The position numbers and the translations under genes were made by a program. Under the pieces are notes generated by a model, which was not told the origin of the DNA, did no database searches, and saw only the letters and a list, made by a program, of their open reading frames with translations. Positions 2,778 to 18,525 of a DNA stretch of 52,203 nt are shown here, in pieces. Position 1 is the stretch's first letter; every line of letters begins with the position of its first letter. Origin of the DNA: Patescibacteria group bacterium (GTDB lineage Bacteria; Patescibacteriota; WWE3; UBA101185; UBA10185); contig JAFGOI010000006.1 in NCBI GenBank assembly GCA_016926555.1, forward strand, positions 1-52,203, written 5' to 3'.

Positions 2778-4448
2778 TTAGCTTTTGGAAGTGCTATCAC
2801 CGGTGGTTTTTTTTGTTATAGTTGGCTCGGGTTTTTCTATTTTTGGGTGCTTTTTGAGGAATTCCTTGTTCTCTCTTACCAAAAATATGGTGCAATAGAT
2901 AGTTCCATCAGAGTCTTTAAGGTGTCTGGCTTTCAAGAACCCTTCCCTAAGGTATTTTCCTTTTGTTGCAGGGTGAACACCGTGTCGGTCTTTTATTTGC
3001 CATTCGGAAATCCACTGGCCTTCATCGTCGTATTCATGCTTTAGATTTTTAGGTATAACTCCTGCTTCAGCGTTCCTTCTACAATCATCGCAGTAAACCT
3101 CATCCAAAGTCCACCAAATCCCATTTCCCGGCTTATACCTCCTACAGATTGCACATTGGTATGGACCTTCTGAGGGTTCCAAGAAAAATCCCTCCGGCTC
3201 TTTTTCTAATCTTCTTTTTCTGATATTCCTAATAGCATCGTGCTTACCCATCATTCTGGCCAGTTGCACAATGTTGTGATGGGAATATTTTGCATACTGT
3301 TCTGGATCAACTTTTTCTTGGGGTTTCGGAGGCTTTTGTGTTTTAGTAACCAGTTTGACCATGTCTTCTTCCTGTTCGTATCCCTTTAACCTCCCCTGCA
3401 AATACCCAAGTCGGTAGCTGATTCTGTCCATTAAGCGCCAATTAGTGTCTTTTAATGTTTCCTTAATAATTTCCTCTAGCTCCTGAGAGCTTTTCCTGTC
3501 TGTTCTTGTTGAATCGGTGTCTTGCACAGAGAATGATGTGTTTACAAATTGACCTATCTCAGGCTTTTCAAACTCAAGTTTTGCATATCTAGCCTTTTCT
3601 ACCGCTTTCTTGAGTAGTATTTCCAAATCAGGGATGGTTGTTTTCTTAAGTTTCAAGGAATCTGCATACATTTGGGTGTCGTGTTTTTGCATTTCTTCTT
3701 CCTTAACTACTACTGCAACTTCCATGGCTTCCAAAGTTTCTACGTATTCTTTGCCCTCCTTATCCGACAAACAAAACTCATTGCGATATTTTTCTAGCAA
3801 TTCCTTGTCTTTTCTCTTTTCTTCCTCCCATTCCTTTTCCCATTTCTCATGGTCATGTTCTTCTTCTTTTCTGTAACCACACGAGTTGCATTTTGTGACC
3901 CATTTTTTGACTTTTCCCTCTTTTTCTATGGTGTATTCCGCTTCTTTGCCGCATTCTGGGCATAAATAGGGTTTAGATTCCCTTATTTTGCCGTCATCAT
4001 ATATGCCTTCTCGTTTATTGCAATTTGGACACTTTAAAAAGAACAACATTCTTAAAGGCTTGTTATCATCTGTTGTGTGATCAAGGGTTTTGAAGAAGCT
4101 TTCCATTTTAATATTGCAATCGGGACAGTAATAGGAAGGAACAGGGGTATTATCGTATTTATCCTGCATCTCTGTGTCTTTTTGAATCCACTCTTGTATT
4201 GTTCTTTCTTTTTCCTTGTGACTGGAAGCTTTTACGAAAAATAAATGATGATTTAGCATCAAGGAAACATTCCTCCATTTTTCTTTATCAGGTATACCTT
4301 TTAATTCTTTTGCTTCTTTGGATTTTTTATAAACCTCTTGAAACATTCGGATACTATCAAGACAACGGTTTATAGTAGTTAGATCATAACGATCAATATA
4401 GGATTGTTCGGGTTGAAGGTATTCCTTACCTTCTTGATGCTTCGCCAC
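2778..4448 (-). CDS. Uncharacterised 556-aa protein with three zinc-ribbon-like Cys pairs
   Basis: CPDC...CPNC, CPEC...CNSC, CAIC...CDDC; long charged coiled-coil segment. Confidence 0.7.
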   Translation of the reverse strand: MAKHQEGKEYLQPEQSYIDRYDLTTINRCLDSIRMFQEVYKKSKEAKELKGIPDKEKWRNVSLMLNHHLFFVKASSHKEKERTIQEWIQKDTEMQDKYDNTPVPSYYCPDCNIKMESFFKTLDHTTDDNKPLRMLFFLKCPNCNKREGIYDDGKIRESKPYLCPECGKEAEYTIEKEGKVKKWVTKCNSCGYRKEEEHDHEKWEKEWEEEKRKDKELLEKYRNEFCLSDKEGKEYVETLEAMEVAVVVKEEEMQKHDTQMYADSLKLKKTTIPDLEILLKKAVEKARYAKLEFEKPEIGQFVNTSFSVQDTDSTRTDRKSSQELEEIIKETLKDTNWRLMDRISYRLGYLQGRLKGYEQEEDMVKLVTKTQKPPKPQEKVDPEQYAKYSHHNIVQLARMMGKHDAIRNIRKRRLEKEPEGFFLEPSEGPYQCAICRRYKPGNGIWWTLDEVYCDDCRRNAEAGVIPKNLKHEYDDEGQWISEWQIKDRHGVHPATKGKYLREGFLKARHLKDSDGTIYCTIFLVRENKEFLKKHPKIEKPEPTITKKTTGDSTSKS

Positions 4449-4472: not shown

Positions 4473-5429
4473 TTAAACAGTAAAACTATGTCTAGTAATT
4501 CCTGTTTTGGGGATGATTATCTGAGGAAATTGTATGTTATTAAAAGTAAAAAAGTCGAATTTTTTCCCATGAAGCTCATTTAGCAACGTATATTTTCTAG
4601 TAAGTATTATGTTACTTAATAAGGCGTGGATTAATAAACAGCAGTTTTGATCTCTCTCAAAATCAAACGGTTTTATAGTTCTAGCTATTTGATTTGTAAG
4701 TACCACTTCACCTTCGGAATTTCTTTTCTTGTGCCTTTCAAGTATGACAACAGAATCTTTAGAACCCCCTAAATTTACTTTAACTTGTTTCATACCTATA
4801 GAAGATATGGCAGCGGCAAAAGACGTGTTGTGGAATCTTAAGGAGTGCTTATAGGCGTTGTACTCACCTTTATCAGAAAAATCCCTGGCGAACGATATAA
4901 GCAGATGTTCGATTATTTCTAAGTTCTTATCCCATTGCCCAGAGTCCATTTTAGATGGATAGGAAAAATAGAAAATCCATCTAAGCATTGGAATCTCTGT
5001 ATCTTCACCCCGCATTTTTAGTGGCTGTTTTTTACCAGTCCAGGGTTTAACTGATGCGTAAACTAGCTCTTCAATTTTGGAATAAGTGCGTGAGTAATAT
5101 TTAGTTTTACTGTCATTCGAAAAAGTTAGAGCTAACCACAAATCCCAATTATCGTGTTGCATTAACGCAAAGATAATTTCGAATAGTGTTTCTGTCATTT
5201 GGTAATACAGGAAGTGAAGCTCTGTTCTAAGCATTCTCTTGAAATCCTCATCGGAAAAGTCCTTAAAATCCTCAGCAAGGTCACCCTTGAGTTTGTCGAA
5301 GTTGTCGTGAGTGCTTGTTAGTAATTGAATTTTATACAACCAGTAATCAGGGTCGTATGTTCTATAAAACTCCCTTTGCACGGAACCGATATCATTGATG
5401 ATCAATTCTTCCTTTTTACTCTCAGACAT
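4473..5429 (-). CDS. Uncharacterised 318-aa protein in type I R-M operon
   Basis: Long ORF overlapping the downstream end of the 5422-6918 CDS by 8 bp. Confidence 0.65.
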   Translation of the reverse strand: MSESKKEELIINDIGSVQREFYRTYDPDYWLYKIQLLTSTHDNFDKLKGDLAEDFKDFSDEDFKRMLRTELHFLYYQMTETLFEIIFALMQHDNWDLWLALTFSNDSKTKYYSRTYSKIEELVYASVKPWTGKKQPLKMRGEDTEIPMLRWIFYFSYPSKMDSGQWDKNLEIIEHLLISFARDFSDKGEYNAYKHSLRFHNTSFAAAISSIGMKQVKVNLGGSKDSVVILERHKKRNSEGEVVLTNQIARTIKPFDFERDQNCCLLIHALLSNIILTRKYTLLNELHGKKFDFFTFNNIQFPQIIIPKTGITRHSFTV

Positions 5430-6918
5430 ATTTCCTTAGTCTTCCCAATATTTCCACCATCGCCCACGTATCCAATGTGCAGTATTTACTCAAATCGTCG
5501 ATAATTTTTTCTCTTTGCTTTTCGTTTTTACCTTCCAAAATGGTTTCTGTCCACATCCTGCGGGCTTTTAGTCCGTCGGATACATCCATCTCTTTATAAC
5601 TTAATTCTGGTACTAATGTTGGCAGGACCTTTTTAATAGAGACGCTTCCAAAGAAATCTTTGTCTACAAACCACATCTCAGAAAAAGGAATCATTAAATC
5701 GACAATTCTTTTATTTAGACTTTCCAAGAATTCTTTATATTCTGGGTAAAACTCAGCCATTTTGGTATTGCATCCCTTTTCGTAGCTCATATTCCATGTA
5801 ATTATTGATCCTTTATTACCAATATCTCTTTTTAGTTTTTCCAGCAGACCTGGCATTGGGTTTGTAGGTTCTAAGTGTAGATATTCTTCGTGTGTTACAT
5901 CTGCATCTAGGGATTCTTGTATATGTAGCGAATACTGAAACGGATAGTCTTTGTACGGCTGCATCCCATCAAACGCAGGAATTAAAGAAGATAGCGTTTC
6001 GTAGTCAAAAAAGTATAGTGGGTACTCAAAAGTTTCTAAAAACTCTCTAATTTTATCTTTATCTATTATCCTCTCACCGCTCTTTGTGGTTTTGATTTGT
6101 GCTAACTGCTTATCTCTTAAAGCAAGTTCTTCAGGAATATCCTGTATATACTTAATGCCCGAATCTTCTAGTTCAGCTATTTGTTCTTGATTTGGATATG
6201 CAAGGTTATAGATACTGTATTTTTCTATGTTAGGATTTAAGTGATTGTATACTTCCATCCAATCTGCAAACCAAGTTGTACCAGAAACACCTACTTGATT
6301 AACATATCTAGGTGATAAATCAGGCATTTCATTTTTATTTAATATTTCAAAGGCTCCATGTATTTGTTTTTCTGTTATTTCTAGCAGTGCTTTAACATCT
6401 TCTGTAACATCTGTTTTACCAGTAATTCCTTTTGGATTTATTTCACCTTTTTTAACGTAATCAGTGTTTGCGTGTATTACGGATATTTCGTCTATTTCGA
6501 GACCATATTTTTGAAGTACAGTTGTTTGAAATGCTAGATCATAGGCATGTTCAGGCTTTGCTCGAGAACTGCTTTTTATTTCAATTAGGTTATATTTTCC
6601 AGATTCTTTTTTCTGTAAGACATCGATAATACAAGTTAAGCCATCAACCTCAAATCTTCCTTGCAGTATAGTATCGGATTCTTCTAGGGCTAACTCCGTT
6701 CTGTTTGGAAGGGACTTATATTCATCATAGTTATTGAAACCGAGTTTAAGCGCCTCTAAAAATAATCGTTCTGCGTAGTTCTCGAAATCATGCCCAGCGT
6801 CGAAGCGTGCTTGAAGATTTTCGTCTATTGGGGGCAGCTTTGATTTATCGTATTTCTTTAACCACAACCAAGCAGGATGTTTTAAGAAAAGCATGTAATC
6901 GGACTTAGCTAAGATCAT
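5422..6918 (-). CDS. PD-(D/E)XK (Cas4-like) nuclease domain plus DUF2779 (RNase H-like) domain protein
   Basis: IDVLQKKESGKYNLIEIKSSSRAK...DLAFQTTVLQKYG (PD-(D/E)XK); YFFDYETLSSLIPAFDGMQPYKDYPFQYSLHI...ITWNMSYEKGC...YCTLDTWAMVEIL (DUF2779). Confidence 0.8.
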   Translation of the reverse strand: MILAKSDYMLFLKHPAWLWLKKYDKSKLPPIDENLQARFDAGHDFENYAERLFLEALKLGFNNYDEYKSLPNRTELALEESDTILQGRFEVDGLTCIIDVLQKKESGKYNLIEIKSSSRAKPEHAYDLAFQTTVLQKYGLEIDEISVIHANTDYVKKGEINPKGITGKTDVTEDVKALLEITEKQIHGAFEILNKNEMPDLSPRYVNQVGVSGTTWFADWMEVYNHLNPNIEKYSIYNLAYPNQEQIAELEDSGIKYIQDIPEELALRDKQLAQIKTTKSGERIIDKDKIREFLETFEYPLYFFDYETLSSLIPAFDGMQPYKDYPFQYSLHIQESLDADVTHEEYLHLEPTNPMPGLLEKLKRDIGNKGSIITWNMSYEKGCNTKMAEFYPEYKEFLESLNKRIVDLMIPFSEMWFVDKDFFGSVSIKKVLPTLVPELSYKEMDVSDGLKARRMWTETILEGKNEKQREKIIDDLSKYCTLDTWAMVEILGRLRKYV

Positions 6919-9900
6919 TTAATTCACACCTTCACTTGTTATACTAAAAAACCTATCAAAGAATTGAGTTAACTTTTCTAATACAGTTTCTCTTTTCTTA
7001 CTTCTTTCTCCTGTAGGTGAAAATCTCGATACTGGGGGCAAGATCTTTGTTATTGCTGTGCCGGTTGTTTCTACATTTCCATTCCTGAATGAGTTTCTTA
7101 TAAATCTATAAGTAGCCTCTGGATCCAAATTCTCGTTTTTAATAATTTCTTCCAATTCTTCCTTTTTCTTTTCCTCAATAAATATCTGCCAGTCATCATC
7201 TACAACAGAATGAGAGTCTAGTGTTGCGATAAACTTATTAATCAAATCCTTTTTGTTTCTAAGCTCCACACTAGAATCAATAGCTTTTTTTATATCTATT
7301 AGTACATCTTTATTCTTAATGTGATCTTCGTGGTATTTCTTAATGAGCCCTAATACATAGTCAATGTTAATTTCTACTTGCTTGATTAATTCCATCTCAA
7401 AAACAAGATCATCATTTATGTTTTCCTTCTCACTATCGGTGCTCGTTCTAAACTCATTGTATAAGTCAATATACATACTGTGGTAGTCTTGAACATCTCG
7501 GTCAGACAATATTTCTTTTCCAACAAACTCATCAAAAGTAGCTAAGATATTGGTAAGACGTAATATTGCTCCATATAGTTTTATAAAATCTTTTGGGTTT
7601 TGTTCACCAATAATACGTTCCCCTAGAGGAAATTTTTCCTGTAATTCTGAAATAAAACTCCTGTACCCACGCGCCTCTTTTTCACCGTCTTTATAACCAT
7701 TGTAATAATCTTCAAAAGCTTTGAGCAGAACTACACCACTAGCTTCTTTGTCACCAAAAAGAGCAATTGATTCGTTTGTGGCTTTTTCAAGGTTTCTAAA
7801 ACAGACAATATTTCCAAATGTTTTTATGCTATTAAGAATTCTATTAGTTCTTGAAAATGCCTGTAGTAGCCCGTGTAATCGCAAGTTCTTATCTACCCAC
7901 AATGTGTTAAGAGTTGTGGCATCAAATCCTGTTAAAAACATGTTTACTACTATCAAAATATCTAATCCTCTATCTTTTACTCTTTGGCTTAGATCTTTGT
8001 AGTAATTCTGAAATTTATCAGAAGATGTATCGTATGAAGTACCAAACATGTGATTATAATCTTGGATAGCATTTTCTAGAAAATCTCTTGAACTAACATC
8101 TAAACCACTAGTATCCTCTAAATTCTCGTCAATCATTCCATCTAAATCTTCATCATTTACTCCAAAACTATAAATTAAAGCAATCTTTAATTTTTTGTCA
8201 CTTGGAGCATCAGCCAATTGCCTTTTAAACTCTGCATAGTATTTTTTAGCCACATCAATAGAAGGTGTTGCGAAAATGGAGTTAAAGCCTGCGAGTCTCC
8301 TATCTTTTAATTTATAGAAACTATTTCTTTTTGTTTTTTGATCAAAGTGATCTCTGATATAGGTAACAATATTTTCTAATCTTTCTTGAGATGCTAATGC
8401 TGCATCGCGATCAATATCTGGTACCTGCGCATCCTCTATGTTTTCTGCTTCTCTTACCGTAGAAACGTAATCAACCTTAAATGGCAGAACATTTTTATCT
8501 GCAATTGCATCAACAATTGTATATGTGTGTAGTTTTTCTCCAAACGCTTGTTCAGTAGTTTTAAAGTTAGGTTTACCACCAGAAGAAGCATTCTTTGCAA
8601 ATATTGGCGTTCCAGTAAATCCAAATAAATGATAATTCTTGAAGGATTTGGTTATAGCGTTGTGCATATCACCAAACTGAGATCTATGACACTCATCAAA
8701 GATTAGAACGACACGTTTATTATAAATATCGTGTTCTTTATTCTTTTTAATAAACCTATCTAGTTTTTGGATAGTAGTTACTACAATAGGTTGGTTTGTT
8801 TTATTACTCTTTAACTTTGCACCATTAGGCTTTGTTAACTGCTCCGTAAGTATAGAAGTATTTGTATTACTATTGGCAGAGCCTTCAGCAAACTTATCGT
8901 ATTCTTTCATTGTCTGGTAGTCTAAGTCTTTTCGATCTACTACAAATAAAACCTTATCTACAAAATCAAGCTCACTAGCTAACTGCGCTGTCTTAAAGCT
9001 TGTTAGGGTCTTACCAGAACCAGTTGTGTGCCAGATATAACCTCCTGCATCCACAGAACCCAATTTTTTATAGTTAGTACTTACCTCAATTCGATTAAGA
9101 ATTCTTTCAGTTGCAACTATTTGATAAGGGCGCATAACTAACAATAATTTTTCGCTGGTAAACACACAGTATTTTGTCAGAATATTAAGAATTGCGTGTT
9201 TAGCAAAGAAAGTTTTTGCGAAGTCCACAAGGTCTGTAATAGGTTTATTCGTAGCATCTGCCCACCAACTAGTAAACTGATAACTATTGCTTGTTCTTTT
9301 GCCTTTCTTAACGGCCCCTTGTACCTGATCTTTTATGTGTTGATCCCTTGTTGTATTACTATAATATTTTGTATGAGTCCCATTTGATATTACGAATATT
9401 TGGACATATTCGAATAGCCCAGATGCTGCCCAAAAGCTTTCTCTCTGATACCTATTTATTTGGTTAAATGCTTCTTGAATAGCAATGCCTCTTTTTTTAA
9501 GTTCAACATGCACAAGAGGCAACCCATTAACCAATATTGTTACATCGTAGCGATTGGAACGTTGTCCTTCATCCGTCGCGTATTGGTTAATAACTTGCAA
9601 ATTATTGTCATGTATAGAATCCTTTTTGATTAGATAAATATTTTTAGTAGTACCATCATCTCTATTAAGATTTTTAATGTGATCTTCCTGAATCGTGGCT
9701 GCTTTGTCTGCAATGCTTTGGTTTGGGTTCGCTAACTCTTGAGTATAGAATCTGTCCCACTCGTTATCTGTAAAGGTATATTCGTTAAGTCTTTCTAGTT
9801 GTCTTCTCAAATTTACTACTAGATCTTCCTCGTTATTGATTTTCAGGTATTCATAAGCTTGAGATTCTAACTGTGAAATAAGTGATTTTTCTAGGACATC

Positions 9901-10005
9901 TTCTGATTGATAAGAAGTATCTCGCACTGAATTCGGTTCATATTTAGAAACAACAGTGCTTTGGTTACTCTCTGCTACCATATTATATTTATAATCAGTT
10001 TTCAT
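6919..10005 (-). CDS. hsdR: Type I restriction-modification system endonuclease subunit HsdR
   Basis: N-terminal nuclease LVHVELKKRG; helicase GYIWHTTGSGKTLTSF, LIFDECHRSQFG, FGFTGTPIF. Confidence 0.95.
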   Translation of the reverse strand: MKTDYKYNMVAESNQSTVVSKYEPNSVRDTSYQSEDVLEKSLISQLESQAYEYLKINNEEDLVVNLRRQLERLNEYTFTDNEWDRFYTQELANPNQSIADKAATIQEDHIKNLNRDDGTTKNIYLIKKDSIHDNNLQVINQYATDEGQRSNRYDVTILVNGLPLVHVELKKRGIAIQEAFNQINRYQRESFWAASGLFEYVQIFVISNGTHTKYYSNTTRDQHIKDQVQGAVKKGKRTSNSYQFTSWWADATNKPITDLVDFAKTFFAKHAILNILTKYCVFTSEKLLLVMRPYQIVATERILNRIEVSTNYKKLGSVDAGGYIWHTTGSGKTLTSFKTAQLASELDFVDKVLFVVDRKDLDYQTMKEYDKFAEGSANSNTNTSILTEQLTKPNGAKLKSNKTNQPIVVTTIQKLDRFIKKNKEHDIYNKRVVLIFDECHRSQFGDMHNAITKSFKNYHLFGFTGTPIFAKNASSGGKPNFKTTEQAFGEKLHTYTIVDAIADKNVLPFKVDYVSTVREAENIEDAQVPDIDRDAALASQERLENIVTYIRDHFDQKTKRNSFYKLKDRRLAGFNSIFATPSIDVAKKYYAEFKRQLADAPSDKKLKIALIYSFGVNDEDLDGMIDENLEDTSGLDVSSRDFLENAIQDYNHMFGTSYDTSSDKFQNYYKDLSQRVKDRGLDILIVVNMFLTGFDATTLNTLWVDKNLRLHGLLQAFSRTNRILNSIKTFGNIVCFRNLEKATNESIALFGDKEASGVVLLKAFEDYYNGYKDGEKEARGYRSFISELQEKFPLGERIIGEQNPKDFIKLYGAILRLTNILATFDEFVGKEILSDRDVQDYHSMYIDLYNEFRTSTDSEKENINDDLVFEMELIKQVEINIDYVLGLIKKYHEDHIKNKDVLIDIKKAIDSSVELRNKKDLINKFIATLDSHSVVDDDWQIFIEEKKKEELEEIIKNENLDPEATYRFIRNSFRNGNVETTGTAITKILPPVSRFSPTGERSKKRETVLEKLTQFFDRFFSITSEGVN

Positions 10006-12124
10006 ATTCTTTGAAGGAAAACAACTTATTACGATAGTACTCGTATTGTTTATTACGTGCTTCTAGCTCTTTCTCTAATTCTTTCTCTAATTCTGTAAAT
10101 TTATCAAGTATATTTGTAAGTTCGTTCTGTGTTTCTAGTGGAGGTACGGGAATCTTTATTTTTTTAACATTGGGAGTTGTTAATTGGGGAATACTACCTC
10201 CGGTATGTCCAATTTCAGTAATATCAAGAATGTAATCCAAAAATTTCGTCGTTATCAAACTTTTATCAGGAATAAGTGTTATTAAACGAACAATTGGAGT
10301 AAATTTTGGTGCTCTAATTGTATGATATCCAATAGTGCCTCTTGCAGATATAGTGACAGCTTCTTTATCAATTTTATAACTACTTGCATATCCATATAAT
10401 GCATTTTCATCTGTTCCATTAGAAAAAATTGGATATGGAAAATCTTCAGAAGGTATAGTTTGACCTTTTTGATATTTTTCAGGTTTATCTCCTCCAGCTG
10501 AAATGTCTAGACAGACATCTTGTAGTGACATCCAAACCGCCGCATCCCCCTCATTTAATATTTTTTCTGTATTGGTTTCGATATTTTTCACAATCTCATT
10601 AAGAGACTCGCGTAATTTATTCTGTATTGTTACTGTATTTGCAATTTCAGTGTCAAGTTCCTTAATATTTATCACATCTTGTTTTTTTTCATTGCCAACA
10701 TAGCTTGTTACTGAAATATTGAAATCATTTTCAACAATATCCTTGTTATTAATTAGTTCAGAAAAATATTCAATGTGTTGACGCTTAATAAAGGTATTTA
10801 AAATCTTTTCACGATTCCTTTTGCTTAATTTGTTTTTGTTACCTCCTCTTATGAATTCCTCAGAAGCATCGATGAAAAGAACACTGTTGTCTTGTTTGCT
10901 CTTTTTAAGAACAATAACGCATGTAGCAATAGACGTTCCAAAGAATAAATCTGGGGGTAATTGAATAACCGCATCAATATAATTGTTATCTATCAGGTAT
11001 TTTCTAATTTTTTTCTCTGCACCACCTCTATAAAGAACACCAGGGAATTCTACAATAGCTGCCGTTCCACTTGTTGATAGCCAAGAAAGCATGTGCATAG
11101 TGAAGGCAAGATCTGCCTTGCTTTTTGGTGCTAATACACCTGCAGGTGAAAAACGCGGATCGTTTATAAGAAGGGGGTTAGCATCACCTTCCCATTTAAT
11201 TGAGTACGGAGGATTAGAAACTATGGCATCAAAGGGTTCATCATCCCAATGTTTGGGATTTGTAAGTGTATCCCCAAGAGCAATATCGAAATTATTGTAA
11301 TTTATGTCGTGCAGGAACATATTAATACGACATAAGTTATAAGTAGTTAAATTTATCTCTTGTCCGAAAAACCCAAGTCTAACATTTTCTTTTCCCAGCA
11401 CTTTAGAAAATTTAAGAAGCAATGAACCTGAACCACACGCAGGATCATAAACCTTATTTACTTCTTTTTTATCAACTGTTGTGATCTCAGCTAGTAACTC
11501 GCTTACTTCTTGTGGGGTATAAAACTCACCGCCAGATTTTCCAGCATTTGAGGCATACATTGTCATCAAAAACTCATAGGCATCACCAAATGCATCAATA
11601 GTGTTATCAGAATAGTTACCCAGCTTAAGATTGCCAATAGCCTCAATAATCTTGGTCAATTTCTTATTGCGCTGCTCTACTGTATTTCCAAGCTTACTGG
11701 AATTGACATCAAGATCTGCAAATAAACCTTTAAGGTCTGCTTCACTGTTAGTACCTTTCGCTGAGTTTTCAATTCCTCGAAATACTGAAGCTAGTGTCTC
11801 ATTTAAGTCCGTGTCCTTACGTGCTCTTTTACAAACATTTACAAACAATTCACTTGGTAGGATATAAAATCCCTTTTCTTTTACAGTATCAGCTCTACCA
11901 AGTTCCGCTTTTTCATCAGACAAATTTGCATAATCGAAATCTTTATTTCCTGTTCTTCTTTCATCTGAATTTATATAATCGGTTAGATTTTCACTTATAA
12001 ATCTATAAAACAACATTCCTAAAACATATTGTTTAAAATCCCAGCCATCTACACTACCTCGCAGATCATTTGCTATCTGCCAAATAGCCCTATGTAATTC
12101 AGATCTTTCTTGTTCTTTAGTCAT
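9995..12124 (-). CDS. hsdM: Type I R-M HsdM-HsdS fusion (N6-adenine methyltransferase plus one target-recognition half-subunit)
   Basis: MTKEQERSELHRAIWQIANDLRG start; GGEFYTPQEVSELL, NPPYSIKW; C-terminal TRD-like SISARGTIG...IPVPPLETQNELTNILDKF. Start moved from 12220 to internal Met at 12124. Confidence 0.9.
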   Translation of the reverse strand: MTKEQERSELHRAIWQIANDLRGSVDGWDFKQYVLGMLFYRFISENLTDYINSDERRTGNKDFDYANLSDEKAELGRADTVKEKGFYILPSELFVNVCKRARKDTDLNETLASVFRGIENSAKGTNSEADLKGLFADLDVNSSKLGNTVEQRNKKLTKIIEAIGNLKLGNYSDNTIDAFGDAYEFLMTMYASNAGKSGGEFYTPQEVSELLAEITTVDKKEVNKVYDPACGSGSLLLKFSKVLGKENVRLGFFGQEINLTTYNLCRINMFLHDINYNNFDIALGDTLTNPKHWDDEPFDAIVSNPPYSIKWEGDANPLLINDPRFSPAGVLAPKSKADLAFTMHMLSWLSTSGTAAIVEFPGVLYRGGAEKKIRKYLIDNNYIDAVIQLPPDLFFGTSIATCVIVLKKSKQDNSVLFIDASEEFIRGGNKNKLSKRNREKILNTFIKRQHIEYFSELINNKDIVENDFNISVTSYVGNEKKQDVINIKELDTEIANTVTIQNKLRESLNEIVKNIETNTEKILNEGDAAVWMSLQDVCLDISAGGDKPEKYQKGQTIPSEDFPYPIFSNGTDENALYGYASSYKIDKEAVTISARGTIGYHTIRAPKFTPIVRLITLIPDKSLITTKFLDYILDITEIGHTGGSIPQLTTPNVKKIKIPVPPLETQNELTNILDKFTELEKELEKELEARNKQYEYYRNKLFSFKEYEN

Positions 12125-12179
12125 ATTCTCATTATAACTTGGATTAAATGAAACTCGTAGTCTTCCTTTTTTATAATCT

Positions 12180-12201
12180 AAATCGGACGCGTGTCCGATT
12201 T
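12180..12201. promoter_or_regulatory. Perfect 9-bp inverted repeat (aaatcggac-gcgt-gtccgattt), possible operator upstream of hsdMS
   Basis: Palindrome read directly, 56 bp upstream of hsdMS start in the divergent intergenic region. Confidence 0.5.
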
Positions 12202-12210
12202 TACAGCGTG

Positions 12211-12241
12211 TTGACAGCAAATAAACTTTGTGGGATTATAA
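12211..12241 (+). promoter_or_regulatory. Sigma-70-like promoter
   Basis: TTGACA at 12211-12216, then A/T-rich -10-like ATTATA/TTATAA at 12235-12241. Confidence 0.5.
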
Positions 12242-12376: not shown

Positions 12377-13702
12377 ATGAACAACCTAAACATAAAAAAA
12401 GTGAAAGTATCTGAGCTTAAACCCTCAGAATACAATCCCAGAAAATGGGACGCGTATAAAGTTGAACAATTAAAGGAAAGCATAGAAAAGTTTGGCTTTG
12501 TTGATCCTTTGATTGTGAATGGAGCCGAAAATAGGAAAAATATCTTGATAGGAGGCCATTTTCGTTATCACCTCGCAAGGCTCCTCAAGTACAAAGAAGT
12601 TCCTGTTGTGTATATAGATATCCCAGATATTGAGAGAGAAAAGGAACTCAATCTGAGATTAAATGCTAATACAGGAGATTGGGATTATAAGCTATTGGCA
12701 GAATTCGATGAGTCTTTTCTTGATTCGGTTGGATTTACAAGCGAAGATTTGGATGAAATCTTTGCGATAGATGAAACTCCCGAGGAATTCGACCTTCGAC
12801 AGGAGCTTGCAAAACTAGATATTAACAATATAGAAATTAAAAAAGGCGATGTTATCCAGCTGGGCGAAAACAGGTTGATGTGTGGGGATTCTACAGTTGA
12901 AAGAGATGTACAAAAGCTTATGGATGGTGAAAAGGCGGATATGTGCTTCACTGACCCACCATACCTTCTCGATTACCTAAAGGGAAAGAAGAAATCAGAG
13001 GGCATTGTAACAGGATTTGGAGCAAAAAGAAATCGAAGGTATCTTGAGACCGATGTTCTACCAGACGATTTTACAGAAAAATGGGTGGCCAACATATCCA
13101 AAATCCAAAAGGAAAACTTCTCAGTGATAATTTATGAGAACTGGAAAAATTTGAGAGTAATTTGGGAGGAAATGGAAAAGTACTGGAAAGTAAGAAATAT
13201 GATCGTATGGCATTTACCCAATAGAACGCAAGGATTTGCTGGTAAACATAGATTTTTTTCAAAGCACGACATTGCAATGGTTGGTACATCAGAATCTTTT
13301 GACCCATCCCTCAATCTCAAACCTGAAGAAGAACTTCTTCAAAATGAATATGAAACAGCATTGTTCGCGATTTCGGGCAGGCCACATTGGGAAAGTTATA
13401 AGAAGGGCAAAAAGTACCAGCCAACAGATTTTATTGAATATGTTGCTTCTGATGAAAAAAGCTCAGGTCAAGGGGTGGTTTTCGGTACCAAACCGATCGA
13501 AATATTAATTCCATACATAAAAGTATTAACAAAGCGAGGAGACCTTATAGTGGAGCCCTTCGGAGGCTCTGGCAGTACGCTGATCGCTTCAGAGAAAATG
13601 AGGAGACGTTGCTACATCATGGAGAAATCCCCCGTTTACGCGGAAGTTATTAAAAAAAGATGGGAAAAGCTCACCCATCAGAAAGGAGTAAAAATATCAT
13701 GA
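12377..13702 (+). CDS. ParB-like N-terminal domain plus site-specific DNA methyltransferase
   Basis: VSELKPSEYNPRKWDAYKVEQLKESIEKFGFVDPLIVN...IGGHFRYHLA (ParB-like); CFTDPPYLLDY and EPFGGSGSTLIASEKMRRRCYIMEKSPVYAEVIKKRWE (MTase). Confidence 0.9.
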   Translation: MNNLNIKKVKVSELKPSEYNPRKWDAYKVEQLKESIEKFGFVDPLIVNGAENRKNILIGGHFRYHLARLLKYKEVPVVYIDIPDIEREKELNLRLNANTGDWDYKLLAEFDESFLDSVGFTSEDLDEIFAIDETPEEFDLRQELAKLDINNIEIKKGDVIQLGENRLMCGDSTVERDVQKLMDGEKADMCFTDPPYLLDYLKGKKKSEGIVTGFGAKRNRRYLETDVLPDDFTEKWVANISKIQKENFSVIIYENWKNLRVIWEEMEKYWKVRNMIVWHLPNRTQGFAGKHRFFSKHDIAMVGTSESFDPSLNLKPEEELLQNEYETALFAISGRPHWESYKKGKKYQPTDFIEYVASDEKSSGQGVVFGTKPIEILIPYIKVLTKRGDLIVEPFGGSGSTLIASEKMRRRCYIMEKSPVYAEVIKKRWEKLTHQKGVKIS

Positions 13703-14106
13703 ATAAAACAATCCAGAAAAGACAACAAAAAGAACGTGAAATCCTACTAGAACATCTTAGGAGAACACCAATAATTCAGTTAGCTTGTGAGAAAGCTGGA
13801 ATATCAAGGGCGACCTATTATCGCTGGAAGAGCAATGATAAAGAGTTTGAAAAACAAGCTAATGAGGCCATTGATGAAGGTGTATCCCTCATGAACGATT
13901 TTGCTGAATCGCAGTTAATTTCTTCAATAAGAGATAAAAACATGACGGCGATAATTTACTGGTTAAAACACAGGCACAAAGCATATTCAACAAGGGTAGA
14001 AATATCGGGAAATATATCTACGATACGTGAAGAACTTACTGAACAGGAAACTCAAATGATTAAGGAGGCCATAAATTTATTTAAGGATGATTATGGAAAT
14101 AAATGA
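13699..14106 (+). CDS. Phage terminase small subunit-like HTH protein
   Basis: IIQLACEKAGISRATYYRWKSNDKEFEKQANEAIDEG; directly upstream of TerL. Start chosen at MNKTIQKRQQ. Confidence 0.75.
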   Translation: MNKTIQKRQQKEREILLEHLRRTPIIQLACEKAGISRATYYRWKSNDKEFEKQANEAIDEGVSLMNDFAESQLISSIRDKNMTAIIYWLKHRHKAYSTRVEISGNISTIREELTEQETQMIKEAINLFKDDYGNK

Positions 14107-15559
14107 AAGAACCCTGCAACAAGTACTCAATGATAGAACTCTACGGGTGAATCTTGCCTACGATAGTTTCGAATGGTTTCTTGTTATCTATTTGAATCAT
14201 CACTTTAGTTATTCTTTTGCTCCATACCATAGAGAGTTAATGAGGATAGTACAAGATCAAGAGATAGAAAGGGCTTTTATTGCTGCTTTTAGATCGAGTG
14301 GAAAAACCACGCTTATTGTTCACGCCGGAATATTATGGTCACTGTTTGGTAAACCGCAGAAAAAATACATCGTTTTAGTTGGTCTTACCAAATCCCAAAT
14401 TGAAGAGCATTTTCACAACCTAAGACGTGAATTAGAAACTAATGAGCTGTTAATAAATGACTTCGGTAGATCGAAGGAACCAATGAGTAAGTGGAGTTCA
14501 GATAAGCTAGAAATACCCTCCCTTGGTGCAACTGTAGTGGCTCGTTCCACAGGAGAAACTGTTAGAGGCGTCAAAGGACTATCAGAAAGGCCGGATCTTA
14601 TTATCTGTGACGATATGGATGACGTAAATTCTACAAGGAGTCTTGATACAAGAGATTGGCTTTTTCATTGGTTTACCAGTGAGATACTGACCCTGGGATT
14701 TGACAATACGAGGGTTATTGTGACAGGAAATATTGTGCATCCTGATTGTTTTCTCGTTCGTATGGAGGAAATGATAAAAGACAAAAAGAAGACAGGAGAG
14801 TTTTTGAAGGTTCCATTTTTTGACTCTAAAGGTAATGCTAATTGGCCCTCAAGATTCCCAACCAAAGAAAGCATACAAAAGCTACAAGATGGGATTTACG
14901 ACCCTCGTGTTTGGAAAAGAGAATATGAACTAATACCAGTAACACTTATGGACCAAGTTATTAAAGAAAACGATATTCGTTACTATGAACAAATTCCAAA
15001 TACAACCTCTAGATATTACGAATACACGCTAATTGCGGTAGATCCTGCAATTAGTGAAAAGGATTCCGCTGACTTTTCTGCCATCGTTTTTGCTGACGTA
15101 TTTAATACAGAAGGTAACTATAAAATATATCTACACTCAAACTATATAAATGAACATTTGGACACACAATCTCTACTTAATAGGATGGAGTATTGTTACA
15201 ACACCAACTTGGGCAAGCGTCCCTTGATATTGATAGAAAACTCGAATTTCCAGGAAATTATAGCTCAGCAGTTAGAGCAAAAAATGCTCAAGGTTGAGAG
15301 AGTTAACCCAAGGGGTGTTAGTAAGATTGATCGTTTTATGTCAGTAAGCAATCTTATAAAGTCAGGTGTGGTTGAATTTCCTAAGGAATTCTCAGGGCAT
15401 CTAAAAGACCAAATATTATATTGCGGAATGACAAAACACGATGATCTCTTAGATGTCTTTGTCTATATATTGCAGTATGTAGTAGAGCATAAAAGACAAG
15501 ACAGTGGTGTTACGTCAGTAAGGTTTATAAGTGTTAAAACCAGATCTTTGTTCAGATAA
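14087..15559 (+). CDS. Phage terminase large subunit
   Basis: Walker A FRSSGKTT, Walker B LIICDDMDD, nuclease motifs AVDPAISEKDSADFSAI...TKHDDLLDVFVYIL. Confidence 0.9.
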   Translation: MIMEINERTLQQVLNDRTLRVNLAYDSFEWFLVIYLNHHFSYSFAPYHRELMRIVQDQEIERAFIAAFRSSGKTTLIVHAGILWSLFGKPQKKYIVLVGLTKSQIEEHFHNLRRELETNELLINDFGRSKEPMSKWSSDKLEIPSLGATVVARSTGETVRGVKGLSERPDLIICDDMDDVNSTRSLDTRDWLFHWFTSEILTLGFDNTRVIVTGNIVHPDCFLVRMEEMIKDKKKTGEFLKVPFFDSKGNANWPSRFPTKESIQKLQDGIYDPRVWKREYELIPVTLMDQVIKENDIRYYEQIPNTTSRYYEYTLIAVDPAISEKDSADFSAIVFADVFNTEGNYKIYLHSNYINEHLDTQSLLNRMEYCYNTNLGKRPLILIENSNFQEIIAQQLEQKMLKVERVNPRGVSKIDRFMSVSNLIKSGVVEFPKEFSGHLKDQILYCGMTKHDDLLDVFVYILQYVVEHKRQDSGVTSVRFISVKTRSLFR

Positions 15560-15603: not shown

Positions 15604-15615
15604 CTAAACATAAAT

Positions 15616-15748
15616 GTTATCAGCGGCGAGTATAACAAAGCACTAGTTCTGTAGTTATTGCAGAACTGAGTATCAAACCCAGAAAGGGGCTACCTTTCCA
15701 AGGGTTTGATGCTTCGCCGCTGATGACTACAGAAGGTAGTCCCTTTCT
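15616..15748 (+). ncRNA. Structured RNA candidate: three-way junction, extra hairpin, potential pseudoknot or alternative helix
   Basis: P1 15616-15629/15714-15727 (14 bp, one G-U); P2 15645-15651/15661-15667; P3 15672-15680/15702-15710 with apical 15682-15687/15693-15698; P4 15725-15730/15736-15741; alternative 16-bp pairing 15681-15696/15733-15748. Confidence 0.65.
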
Positions 15749-15828
15749 TATTGCCTACCTCTAATATACTTTTAAGGCTTTACGAAGCCTTGCATTAAGG
15801 GAACTCTTCTGTCATCCATCAATGTGGT

Positions 15829-16428
15829 ATGTATAAAAGAGTTGAACCCAAAAAACTAACAGGTAAAGAAACATTTAAAAACGCAAACAAAGAATTTTCC
15901 GTTCTTCAATTTTGGCAATTCGCCTTTTCCAATCTCAATTCTAACGTTCTAAGAGGAGATCTAGCGGAATTTTTTATCGAGAATGCCTTAAGGGATGTAG
16001 AACACATAACAATTAAAAACCCCTGGGGAGATTTTGATGTAGTAACAAATGAGGGTACTAAAATAGAGACCAAATGTAGTGCGTTTCTACAAGACTGGGA
16101 CCAGAAGGAACTTTCCAAACCTTTATTTTCAGGTTTGAGAGCCAAGGATTTATATTGGAATTCTGCTGTATCAGATTTCAAAGCTGACTCAGGAAAAGAC
16201 TACAAATCCGATATTTACGTATTTGTTCTACAGAATCATAAGAATCCCGAAACTCTGAATCTTTTAGATATGAATCAATGGGAGTTCTTCGTTTTATCCA
16301 GGGATGAATTAAAAGAGATATCTAAAAATGCATCAAGTGTTTCTCTAGTAAAACTACAAAAGGAAAATGTCGAGCCCATTCACTTTAACGGACTAAGACA
16401 AGCTATATTAAGCAAAGAAAACTTTTGA
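15829..16428 (+). CDS. PD-(D/E)XK nuclease-like protein
   Basis: VLRGDLAEFFIENAL...NPWGDFDVVTNEGTKIETKCSAFLQDWDQ (D...ExK pattern). Confidence 0.6.
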   Translation: MYKRVEPKKLTGKETFKNANKEFSVLQFWQFAFSNLNSNVLRGDLAEFFIENALRDVEHITIKNPWGDFDVVTNEGTKIETKCSAFLQDWDQKELSKPLFSGLRAKDLYWNSAVSDFKADSGKDYKSDIYVFVLQNHKNPETLNLLDMNQWEFFVLSRDELKEISKNASSVSLVKLQKENVEPIHFNGLRQAILSKENF

Positions 16429-16436
16429 TATTTTGC

Positions 16437-16907
16437 TTATTTTTGAACGTTAACCCGTCCACCGATAAAGTAAGCTTTATAAACCTCCTCGTTATTTAAA
16501 AAGATTCCTTCTGTTTGGATGAATTCCTCAATATCACCTTGGCACTCGTTTGTATATTTTAAATTGTTTTCCTCAAATTTTTCGGGCCCTCGATGGATAC
16601 AGTTTCCAGTGGGACCTTCCTTTAAAGCTTTACGTAGAAACGCGTAGATGTCCGAAAAGTTGATTCCTTCTGCAACCTTACCCCAATAAACACATCTAAA
16701 AACGTCTTTTCCATCAAACCAAAGAGTTTCGTTACCAGAGTATGGTTCACCCCCGTAAAATTCGTCTTCATATTTCCAATTCCCCTCATTTCTAGTTAAT
16801 ATCTTTCCGCCCTTGCCATTATCTTCGTACTTGATACTTTCGTCAGCATAGCCCAGTAAGTTAAACTTTCTAAGGGTATTTTTGAGTTCTTGTGCTTGTG
16901 GTCTCAT
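16437..16907 (-). CDS. DUF5680-like protein
   Basis: YEDEFYGGEPYSGNETLWFDGKDVFRCVYWGKV pattern. Confidence 0.6.
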   Translation of the reverse strand: MRPQAQELKNTLRKFNLLGYADESIKYEDNGKGGKILTRNEGNWKYEDEFYGGEPYSGNETLWFDGKDVFRCVYWGKVAEGINFSDIYAFLRKALKEGPTGNCIHRGPEKFEENNLKYTNECQGDIEEFIQTEGIFLNNEEVYKAYFIGGRVNVQK

Positions 16908-16973
16908 ATAAGTTATTGTACATCAAAAGCTGGAGCTGGACTTGTACTCGTTTTTGCGTCATCCATTGTATAG

Positions 16974-18281
16974 ATGACAACAGCAACAAACACCATTAAA
17001 TACTGCCTTTATGCACGAAAATCTTCGGAAAGCGATGAGCGCCAAGCTATGAGTATAGACTCTCAAATCAAGGAAATGACAGACCTCGCTTTAAAGGACC
17101 AATTAGAAGTAGTAGAGATCAAAAAGGAGAGCCACTCTGCTAAAAATTCGGGTACAAGACCACTATTTTTAGAGATGCTTTATGAACTCAATCAAGATAA
17201 ATACAACGGTATCTTGACTTGGGCTCCAGACAGGCTTAGCAGAAATGCAGGTGACTTAGGTTCTCTTGTTGATATTATGGATCGAGGAAAGTTAGCGCAT
17301 ATCAAAACGGCTTCTCAATCTTTTTCTAACAATCCAAACGAAAAGTTCTTACTAATGATTCTTTGTTCCCAGGCTAAACTTGAAAACGATAACAGAGGTT
17401 TAAATGTTAAAAGAGGTATAAGAGCTAAGTGTGAAATGGGATGGAGACCCGCGCCCGCCCCTGTCGGATATTTAAACTATTCCCATCTTGGAACTAAGAA
17501 AGTAATGCTAGATAAAGAAGTTGCCCCTCTAATTAAAGAAATGTTCACGATGGTAGCTAATGGGTGTAGCGGAAGAGATGTAAAAGTTTGGTTAGATAAA
17601 GACGGAAGACTGAAAAAACATACACATAGAAATATACCTCTAAGTATGGTTTATAGAATGCTAAAAAATAGTTTTTACTACGGTGAATTTGAGTATCCAA
17701 CAAATAGCGGGGTTTGGTACAAAGGTTCGCATGACCCGATAATTACACGAGAATTGTTTAAAGAAGTTCAAAAGAAATTGAGTTTTTATACTGAGAATAA
17801 AACAAAAACTAAATGGGGTTCAAAAACCTTTGATTTCAAAGAGATTTTTAAATGCGCTTACTGTGGAGCAAGTGTTGTAGGTGAAGAAAAATTCAAACTA
17901 CTAAAATCAGGAAAGAAGAATAGGTACGTTTACTACCATTGTTCCAAAAAGATTGATCCAAATTGCCCAGAACCTTATGTAAATGAGGTAGACTTGATTG
18001 ATAGATTTATCAGGTTCGTTGAACTACTAGAAACAAGAAGAAGTACAGCCATTGAAATAAATAAAACAATTAAGACTAAAATGAATAAATATAAGGCGTT
18101 CAGAGACCAGATACTAGAACAACAAAGCGTTTCAATTGAGGATAAACCACTTAAATTTGCTGAGTTTTTCAGACATATAGTTTTAAACGGAACTAATGAG
18201 GAAAAACAAGAAATCCTATCGTGCATTAACCAGGCCTTATATCTCCATAACGGAGAAATATTTTCCAATCCTTTAATTTAG
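16974..18281 (+). CDS. Serine recombinase (resolvase/invertase N-terminal, recombinase and zinc-ribbon domains)
   Basis: CLYARKSSESDERQAMSIDSQI; TWAPDRLSRNAGDLG; zinc ribbon FKCAYCGASV...YYHCSKKIDPNCP. Confidence 0.95.
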   Translation: MTTATNTIKYCLYARKSSESDERQAMSIDSQIKEMTDLALKDQLEVVEIKKESHSAKNSGTRPLFLEMLYELNQDKYNGILTWAPDRLSRNAGDLGSLVDIMDRGKLAHIKTASQSFSNNPNEKFLLMILCSQAKLENDNRGLNVKRGIRAKCEMGWRPAPAPVGYLNYSHLGTKKVMLDKEVAPLIKEMFTMVANGCSGRDVKVWLDKDGRLKKHTHRNIPLSMVYRMLKNSFYYGEFEYPTNSGVWYKGSHDPIITRELFKEVQKKLSFYTENKTKTKWGSKTFDFKEIFKCAYCGASVVGEEKFKLLKSGKKNRYVYYHCSKKIDPNCPEPYVNEVDLIDRFIRFVELLETRRSTAIEINKTIKTKMNKYKAFRDQILEQQSVSIEDKPLKFAEFFRHIVLNGTNEEKQEILSCINQALYLHNGEIFSNPLI

Positions 18282-18332
18282 CTAAATATAGAACAGGGAC
18301 TCGAACTTAAATACATTGTTATAGCAATAAAA

Positions 18333-18346: not shown

Positions 18347-18451
18347 AATGTTTTACAGAAAAATTGCGGTTCGGATTTAAGGTTTTTAAGAGAGGTTTTA
18401 TCAAGCTGTTAAGAGGTATTAGAGGCTTCATGGTCACTTGCGTGCCCATTC

Positions 18452-18525
18452 TGGCTGGGGGACAGGGATTCGAACCCCAATTTCTGCGTCCAGAGCGCAA
18501 CGTCCTACCATTAGACGATCCCCCA
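18452..18525 (-). tRNA. tRNA-Gln (anticodon CTG), CCA encoded
   Basis: Minus strand TGGGGGATCGTCTAATGGTAGGACGTTGCGCTCTGGACGCAGAAATTGGGGTTCGAATCCCTGTCCCCCAGCCA folds as cloverleaf. Confidence 0.93.

Follow-up and report, generated by a model that had tools for sequence, protein, structure and literature searches.

Terminase genes without capsid genes in tRNA-integrating elements of Patescibacteria: a candidate family of phage satellites

Introduction

Small genomes of the Patescibacteria type contain a recurrent element in which phage packaging genes are combined with variable defence cargo and a large serine recombinase, with no portal or capsid gene. The copy described here lies in a window of 52,203 nucleotides, the whole stretch of DNA analysed, from a WWE3 bacterium (contig JAFGOI010000006.1 of assembly GCA_016926555.1). 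It is almost certainly a mobile element that integrates at tRNA genes and carries a packaging module of phage origin. We further consider it probable that such elements form a family of phage satellites, each of which would package its own DNA into the capsids of a helper phage. A preliminary description of the window, made from the sequence alone, had suggested either a satellite-like or a domesticated packaging island.

Results

An intact packaging trio in the window

The window carries an intact trio of a ParB-domain methyltransferase (ParB-MTase), a small terminase subunit (TerS) and a large terminase subunit (TerL), and all three genes named in the preliminary description are real open reading frames (ORFs) with Pfam or PHROG support (Table 1). 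TerS probably starts at the later of its two possible positions, overlapping the stop of the MTase gene, because its homologs begin at MNKTIQ in the alignment. It contains a helix-turn-helix, and its best fold matches, to the phage proteins phBC6A51 and Sf6 TerS, are weak. TerL escapes detection by the Pfam model PF03354, and its structure model matches the full-length terminases T4 gp17, D6E and HK97. Residues R69, K73, D175, D176, G214, D319, D453 and D456 are invariant across 28 aligned relatives, and the Walker A and B motifs, the ATPase coupling motif and the acidic triad of the RNase H-like nuclease fall in invariant or near-invariant columns, which bears out the earlier view that TerL retains its ATPase and nuclease motifs. 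Judged from sequence and fold model, this is a working-looking motor. The activity of the window copy is less sure, because its branch in the TerL tree is long (1.73, a fast-evolving protein) and the left end of the element is not seen.

The earlier remark that no structural phage gene is recognisable in the window also holds: no head or tail PHROG appears among the families listed for the 29 other window ORFs scanned, and a portal profile of related phages finds no match anywhere in the 872-kb genome. The element thus lacks a full virion gene set, as phage satellites do. Cargo and recombinase come after TerL, where a tailed prophage would continue into portal and capsid genes.

Table 1. Features of the window element and of selected relatives (positions in the window unless a locus is named).
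Feature	Position	Strand	Evidence
556-aa protein, family c5	2778..4448	-	recurs on left side of other elements
DUF2779 protein, cargo	5422..6918	-	Pfam E=1e-37
HsdR, type I restriction subunit, probable left cargo	6919..10005	-	Pfam HSDR_N, EcoR124_C
HsdM-HsdS fusion, type I R-M, probable left cargo	9995..12220	-	placed from relatives with left att copy
ParB-domain + N6/N4 DNA methyltransferase, element core gene	12377..13702	+	Pfam ParB_N E=1e-10, N6_N4_Mtase E=7e-19; PHROG 498 E=2e-82
TerS, small terminase subunit	13699..14106 (alternative ORF start 13660)	+	PHROG terminase small subunit, E=1e-10 (ORF 13660-14106)
TerL, large terminase subunit, ATPase + nuclease	14087..15559	+	PHROG 38 terminase large subunit, E=9e-69; T4 gp17/D6E/HK97 fold; cassette clade
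Structured RNA, three-way junction + pseudoknot, TerL-cargo interval	15612..15752	+	fold z=-8.1 (computed on surrounding 231 bases); covarying homologs
Nuclease-like ORF, cargo	15829..16428	+	D...ExK motif read by eye
DUF5680 protein, cargo	16437..16907	-	Pfam PF18931 E=1e-22
Promoter-like conserved motif TGGACTT-N-GCGTCATCCA upstream of recombinase	16937..16965	+	recurs in relatives
Dedicated large serine recombinase (integrase)	16974..18281	+	Resolvase, Recombinase, Zn_ribbon domains
tRNA T-arm mimic, probable att component	18293..18306	+	13/14 match to tRNA-Gln T-arm
Att-flanking conserved segment, recombinase-to-tRNA interval	18366..18451	+	86% identity to L174 through tRNA
tRNA-Gln(ctg), integration target, 3' end toward element	18452..18525	-	ARAGORN; same geometry in relatives
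Copies of the structured RNA family	window 15612-15752; L046:15367-15492; L318, L319, L320		
Unrelated TerL in usual TerL slot	L288:1780-3057; L289:8529-9851		

Distribution and gene order of the cassette

Homologs of TerL occur in 39 of 379 sampled genomes of the phylum. The capsid-less set of MTase, TerS, TerL and serine recombinase, which the preliminary description had proposed to seek elsewhere, was recovered in about 35 distinct loci of some 33 small Patescibacteria-type genomes, as well as in IMG/VR contigs (L094-L101, L105, L106); these relatives emerged only from alignment-based searches, as scans of viral and genome contigs with one protein at a time gave none. The order is constant: ParB-MTase (sometimes with a second MTase), TerS, TerL, variable cargo and large serine recombinase, with no portal. 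The MTase family is present in 36 of 41 loci, and some loci, such as L042, L046 and L055, show no recombinase within the stretch examined. Portal and capsid-region genes follow in just four loci, which are prophages (L068-L071), and five IMG/VR contigs run into a portal (L102-L104, L107, L111). Tandem pairs of different TerL genes were also seen, in L048/L057, L097 and L105.

Seen from the recombinase, the packaging module is variable. Of the 51 genome loci in which 6 kb or more precede the recombinase, 18 carry the whole trio, nine keep MTase and TerS without TerL, five are partial and about 19 lack all three over the stretch examined. In L202, L190, L271 and L205 the recombinase starts less than 70 bp after TerS, and no TerL remnant can therefore be hidden between them. 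L288 and L289 carry, in place of the usual TerL, a terminase of an unrelated family (PHROG 2, E=8e-39 and 9e-31).

Integration at tRNA genes

The recombinase forms a dedicated subfamily, with 43-64% identity between the window and other elements and 79% to L174, also of WWE3. Scores above 430 bits were found in about 58 of 361 sampled genomes, as counted by hand from the score listing, and other serine recombinases score about 393 bits and below. The recombinase is followed, often 90-290 bp away, by an opposite-strand tRNA gene whose 3' end points toward the element; among the best 80 genome loci, such a tRNA occurs within 3 kb in 48, and one on the same strand in two. Several genomes (G354:C1, G315, G372) hold more than one copy of the recombinase subfamily, and the copies of G354, about 22 kb apart, suggest tandem or stacked elements.

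In L066, L040 and L039 the first 15-21 bases of the tRNA end, starting from the tRNA edge, are repeated exactly far to the left, at 14.1, 20.7 and 15.8 kb, respectively, which gives elements of 14-21 kb; the chance of a 15-mer at the tRNA-edge offset in 26 kb is about 2e-5. In G025 the element sits beside the tRNA-Gln of a tRNA cluster, and the matching cluster of G026, of the same genus, is unoccupied. Together, the serine recombinase, the tRNA repeats of these three relatives and the unoccupied site constitute the site-specific integration and excision module found in phage satellites. For L047, comparison with a genus mate revealed no homologous left flank by which to define its exact left junction. 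Circular contigs of the element were not found. L036, L047, L048/L057 and L067 have a T-arm mimic similar to that of the window, at a distance of about 135-155 bp from the tRNA. The 86-bp segment before the window tRNA is conserved in L174, the closest relative found, which, unlike the window, has an extra gene ahead of the segment.

Since the tRNA-end repeats of L066, L040 and L039 lie further left than the MTase, the genes on that side belong inside the element. The window element therefore probably extends beyond the trio, leftward over the restriction-modification (R-M) genes and other cargo and rightward through the recombinase to tRNA-Gln. A left copy of the tRNA-Gln end was found neither in the window nor in the whole genome; the contig begins at base 1. 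Near this contig end, an imperfect direct repeat of about 70 bp (window positions ~115-190 and 1325-1410) flanks an HhH-GPD (endonuclease III-like) gene.

Exchangeable defence cargo

The neighbours noted earlier are as stated: Pfam identifies the left one as type I R-M, and the right ones are a nuclease, DUF5680 and the serine recombinase, the nuclease-like ORF being recognised by its motif, with no Pfam match and no homolog at the corresponding position in relatives. The DUF2779 protein of the window, whose family c9 occurs also in L032, L062 and L064, and family c5, which is present in seven loci and has no Pfam match for its 556-aa window member, both recur in other elements. Across the family, 110 proteins between TerS/TerL and the recombinase matched 353 PADLOC families and 110 control proteins beyond the tRNA matched 21, a contrast that tallies matched families rather than proteins and is to be read qualitatively. 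Restriction of types I to IV is represented among the matches, together with reverse transcriptases and with DISARM-like and BREX-like helicases. In L051 and L272 the MTase and TerL are 96% identical and the cargo is different.

A TGGACTT-spacer-GCGG/GCGT motif stands a few tens of bp upstream of the recombinase in L041, L044, L045, L047, L053 and L059 and is perhaps a common regulatory site. The motif was considered as an attachment site and this was set aside, as its 17-bp spacing and position suit a promoter better.

Structured RNAs

The RNA between TerL and the cargo matches no Rfam family, and its identification as LOOT RNA was rejected on that comparison. Covarying homologs lie in G035, G039 and G041, and two further family genomes came to light with a model based on the window and L046 copies. 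The alignment of this model has eight rows, two of them weak matches to the antisense strand of loci already included, and of its 29 pairs 21 vary on both sides. Every aligned sense copy read by eye shows pairing between a loop and the 3' end. The RNA ends in a T-run and, in relatives, lies immediately 5' of membrane-protein genes. We regard it as a new structured RNA family of serine-recombinase elements.

LOOT RNA (RF03000) takes like positions in other elements, with 36 matches in 17 of 37 genomes; by our own count, about 14 of the 36 lie no more than 5 kb from a cassette TerL. It is found inside L012, L027, L035, L052, L067, L268, L286, L287 and L291, often near DUF4352-type genes. No function for LOOT RNA was found in the literature, and the spread of the elements may explain its distribution.

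Evolution of the cassette and alternative explanations

In a tree of 67 TerLs, all 45 from capsid-less cassettes fall on one side of a branch with support of 100/100, in a clade adjacent to TerLs of phages from similar hosts. Between pairs of related elements, dN/dS is 0.03-0.27 for TerL, 0.02-0.17 for TerS, 0.02-0.11 for the MTase and 0.02-0.15 for the recombinase, values indicating that the trio and recombinase are under selection with no capsid gene adjacent. These data bear on the idea that the cassette is a decayed prophage which lost its structural genes, and which the preliminary description expected to betray itself through homologous loci continuing into portal genes. Such homologs do exist (L102, L103, L104, L107 and prophages L068-L071), and the long branch of the window TerL and the stop that splits the TerL of L034 point the same way, but the portal-bearing loci lie outside the cassette TerL clade, which argues against decay. 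Strong purifying selection within a single clade of 45 capsid-less TerLs largely refutes this idea; with a dedicated recombinase, conserved gene order and cargo turnover also against it, decay is very improbable. The satellite-like island proposed earlier is supported by its recurrent capsid-less order, the single TerL clade, purifying selection, tRNA att sites and TerS-only sisters, while a domesticated one is unlikely because the element looks mobile.

The trio could also be a defence or R-M-like system, in which TerS finds DNA, TerL translocates and cuts it and the MTase protects self, the recombinase element being a mere carrier. The many defence genes that travel along, the methyltransferase and the lack of portal or capsid would suit such a role. 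However, the two-domain packaging motor is retained whole, many sister elements have MTase-TerS without TerL, and in some an unrelated terminase substitutes for TerL, as packaging predicts; moreover, the closest phages carry the same genes ahead of a portal (L103). Because TerL is lost or replaced while TerS is kept, packaging fits better, and a defence role for the trio is unlikely. The helix-turn-helix of TerS, its weak fold matches and its retention without TerL in 9 of 51 loci would agree with an ordinary integrative defence island, in which TerS would bind DNA as a regulator or assist recombination, and TerL would do no more than disturb the packaging of phages; this is quite unlikely given that the nuclease and ATPase sites of TerL are intact and that a different complete terminase replaces it in some elements. 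Counterpoints to the satellite reading are the roughly 19 recombinase loci without any gene of the trio in the stretch examined and the scarcity of related prophages in cassette genomes, although a helper could also be a virulent phage or one of another lineage. The related-phage portal was found in 6 of 37 genomes searched, four of them the prophage genomes themselves; related phages thus occur in the same phylum and partly in the same genomes. Its absence from most element-bearing genomes searched would accord with gene transfer through an unknown host-coded particle or channel, akin to a gene transfer agent and needing no helper, which we hold to be improbable, as site-specific integration at varied tRNAs better suits a mobile parasite.

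Discussion

The satellite reading that we favour would operate as follows. The recombinase would excise the element as a circle and reinsert it at a tRNA 3' end. When a helper phage infects or is induced, the element's TerS would recognise a putative pac or cos-like site of its own, and its TerL would dock on the helper portal and pump element DNA into helper capsids, while TerS-only sisters would borrow the helper's TerL. The ParB-MTase may modify element DNA as protection or label, and it is plausible that it marks the element's own DNA in this way. Swappable defence cargo would repay the host and block rival phages.

Among known systems, SaPI/PICI islands share the integrated state, an own TerS, the absence of capsid genes and host-helping cargo. 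In PICIs, TerS redirects the TerL of the helper (PMC10690885), and the TerS-only sisters are the most PICI-like members here. The PICI combination of own TerS and no TerL is confined to those relatives, the window having an intact TerL. Other differences are the large serine recombinase at tRNA genes, the ParB-MTase as core gene, the own TerL of many elements and the Patescibacteria-type hosts; no capsid-remodelling gene was recognised. Where PICIs have a tyrosine integrase, stl/alpA-type regulation and a pri-rep module, the window has a serine recombinase and no primase or replication match among the ORFs scanned. Capsid-forming PICIs and the Streptomyces satellites MulchRoom/MiniFlayer likewise encode TerS and TerL, but they also encode portal and capsid proteins (PMC10690885), and portal, capsid and head genes of this type were found neither among the window ORFs scanned nor, for the portal profile, in the genome.

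Patescibacteria-type tailed phages with MTase, TerS, TerL and portal (L103, L102, L107) have sister TerLs, and L103 shares the MTase-TerS-TerL order, but these phages continue into portal and capsid and have another TerS family and a TerL outside the cassette clade. Tycheposons use tRNA sites, and tycheposons and VEIMEs carry tyrosine recombinases. To our knowledge, the integrase of the Vibrio cholerae satellite PLE does not target tRNA genes, and PLE has no TerL and an unrelated gene content. PLE resembles the present elements in being a satellite with a large serine recombinase and an anti-phage role (PMC6002521). Tycheposons and VEIMEs of marine bacteria are likewise cargo islands tied to phage particles (PMC11389934, PMC10803314), but have other hosts and different genes. 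In open-access papers we found neither a satellite family of Patescibacteria nor a satellite with both terminase subunits but without portal or capsid; provisionally, capsid-less packaging genes together with a tRNA-targeting serine recombinase match no described satellite family that we found.

The broadest claim, to which we give an even chance, is that of a large and old satellite family of Patescibacteria with a complete terminase and no portal or capsid, which would package itself into foreign capsids by means of its own TerL and be a major mover of genes for phage defence among ultra-small bacteria. A terminase that has no portal beside it raises the question of whether the TerL of a satellite docks on the portal of another phage, and the existence of TerL-plus, TerS-only and swapped-TerL versions makes this question testable. 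For the tiny-genome Patescibacteria, whose phages are little known, this common family offers a mechanism by which defence genes may move among them.
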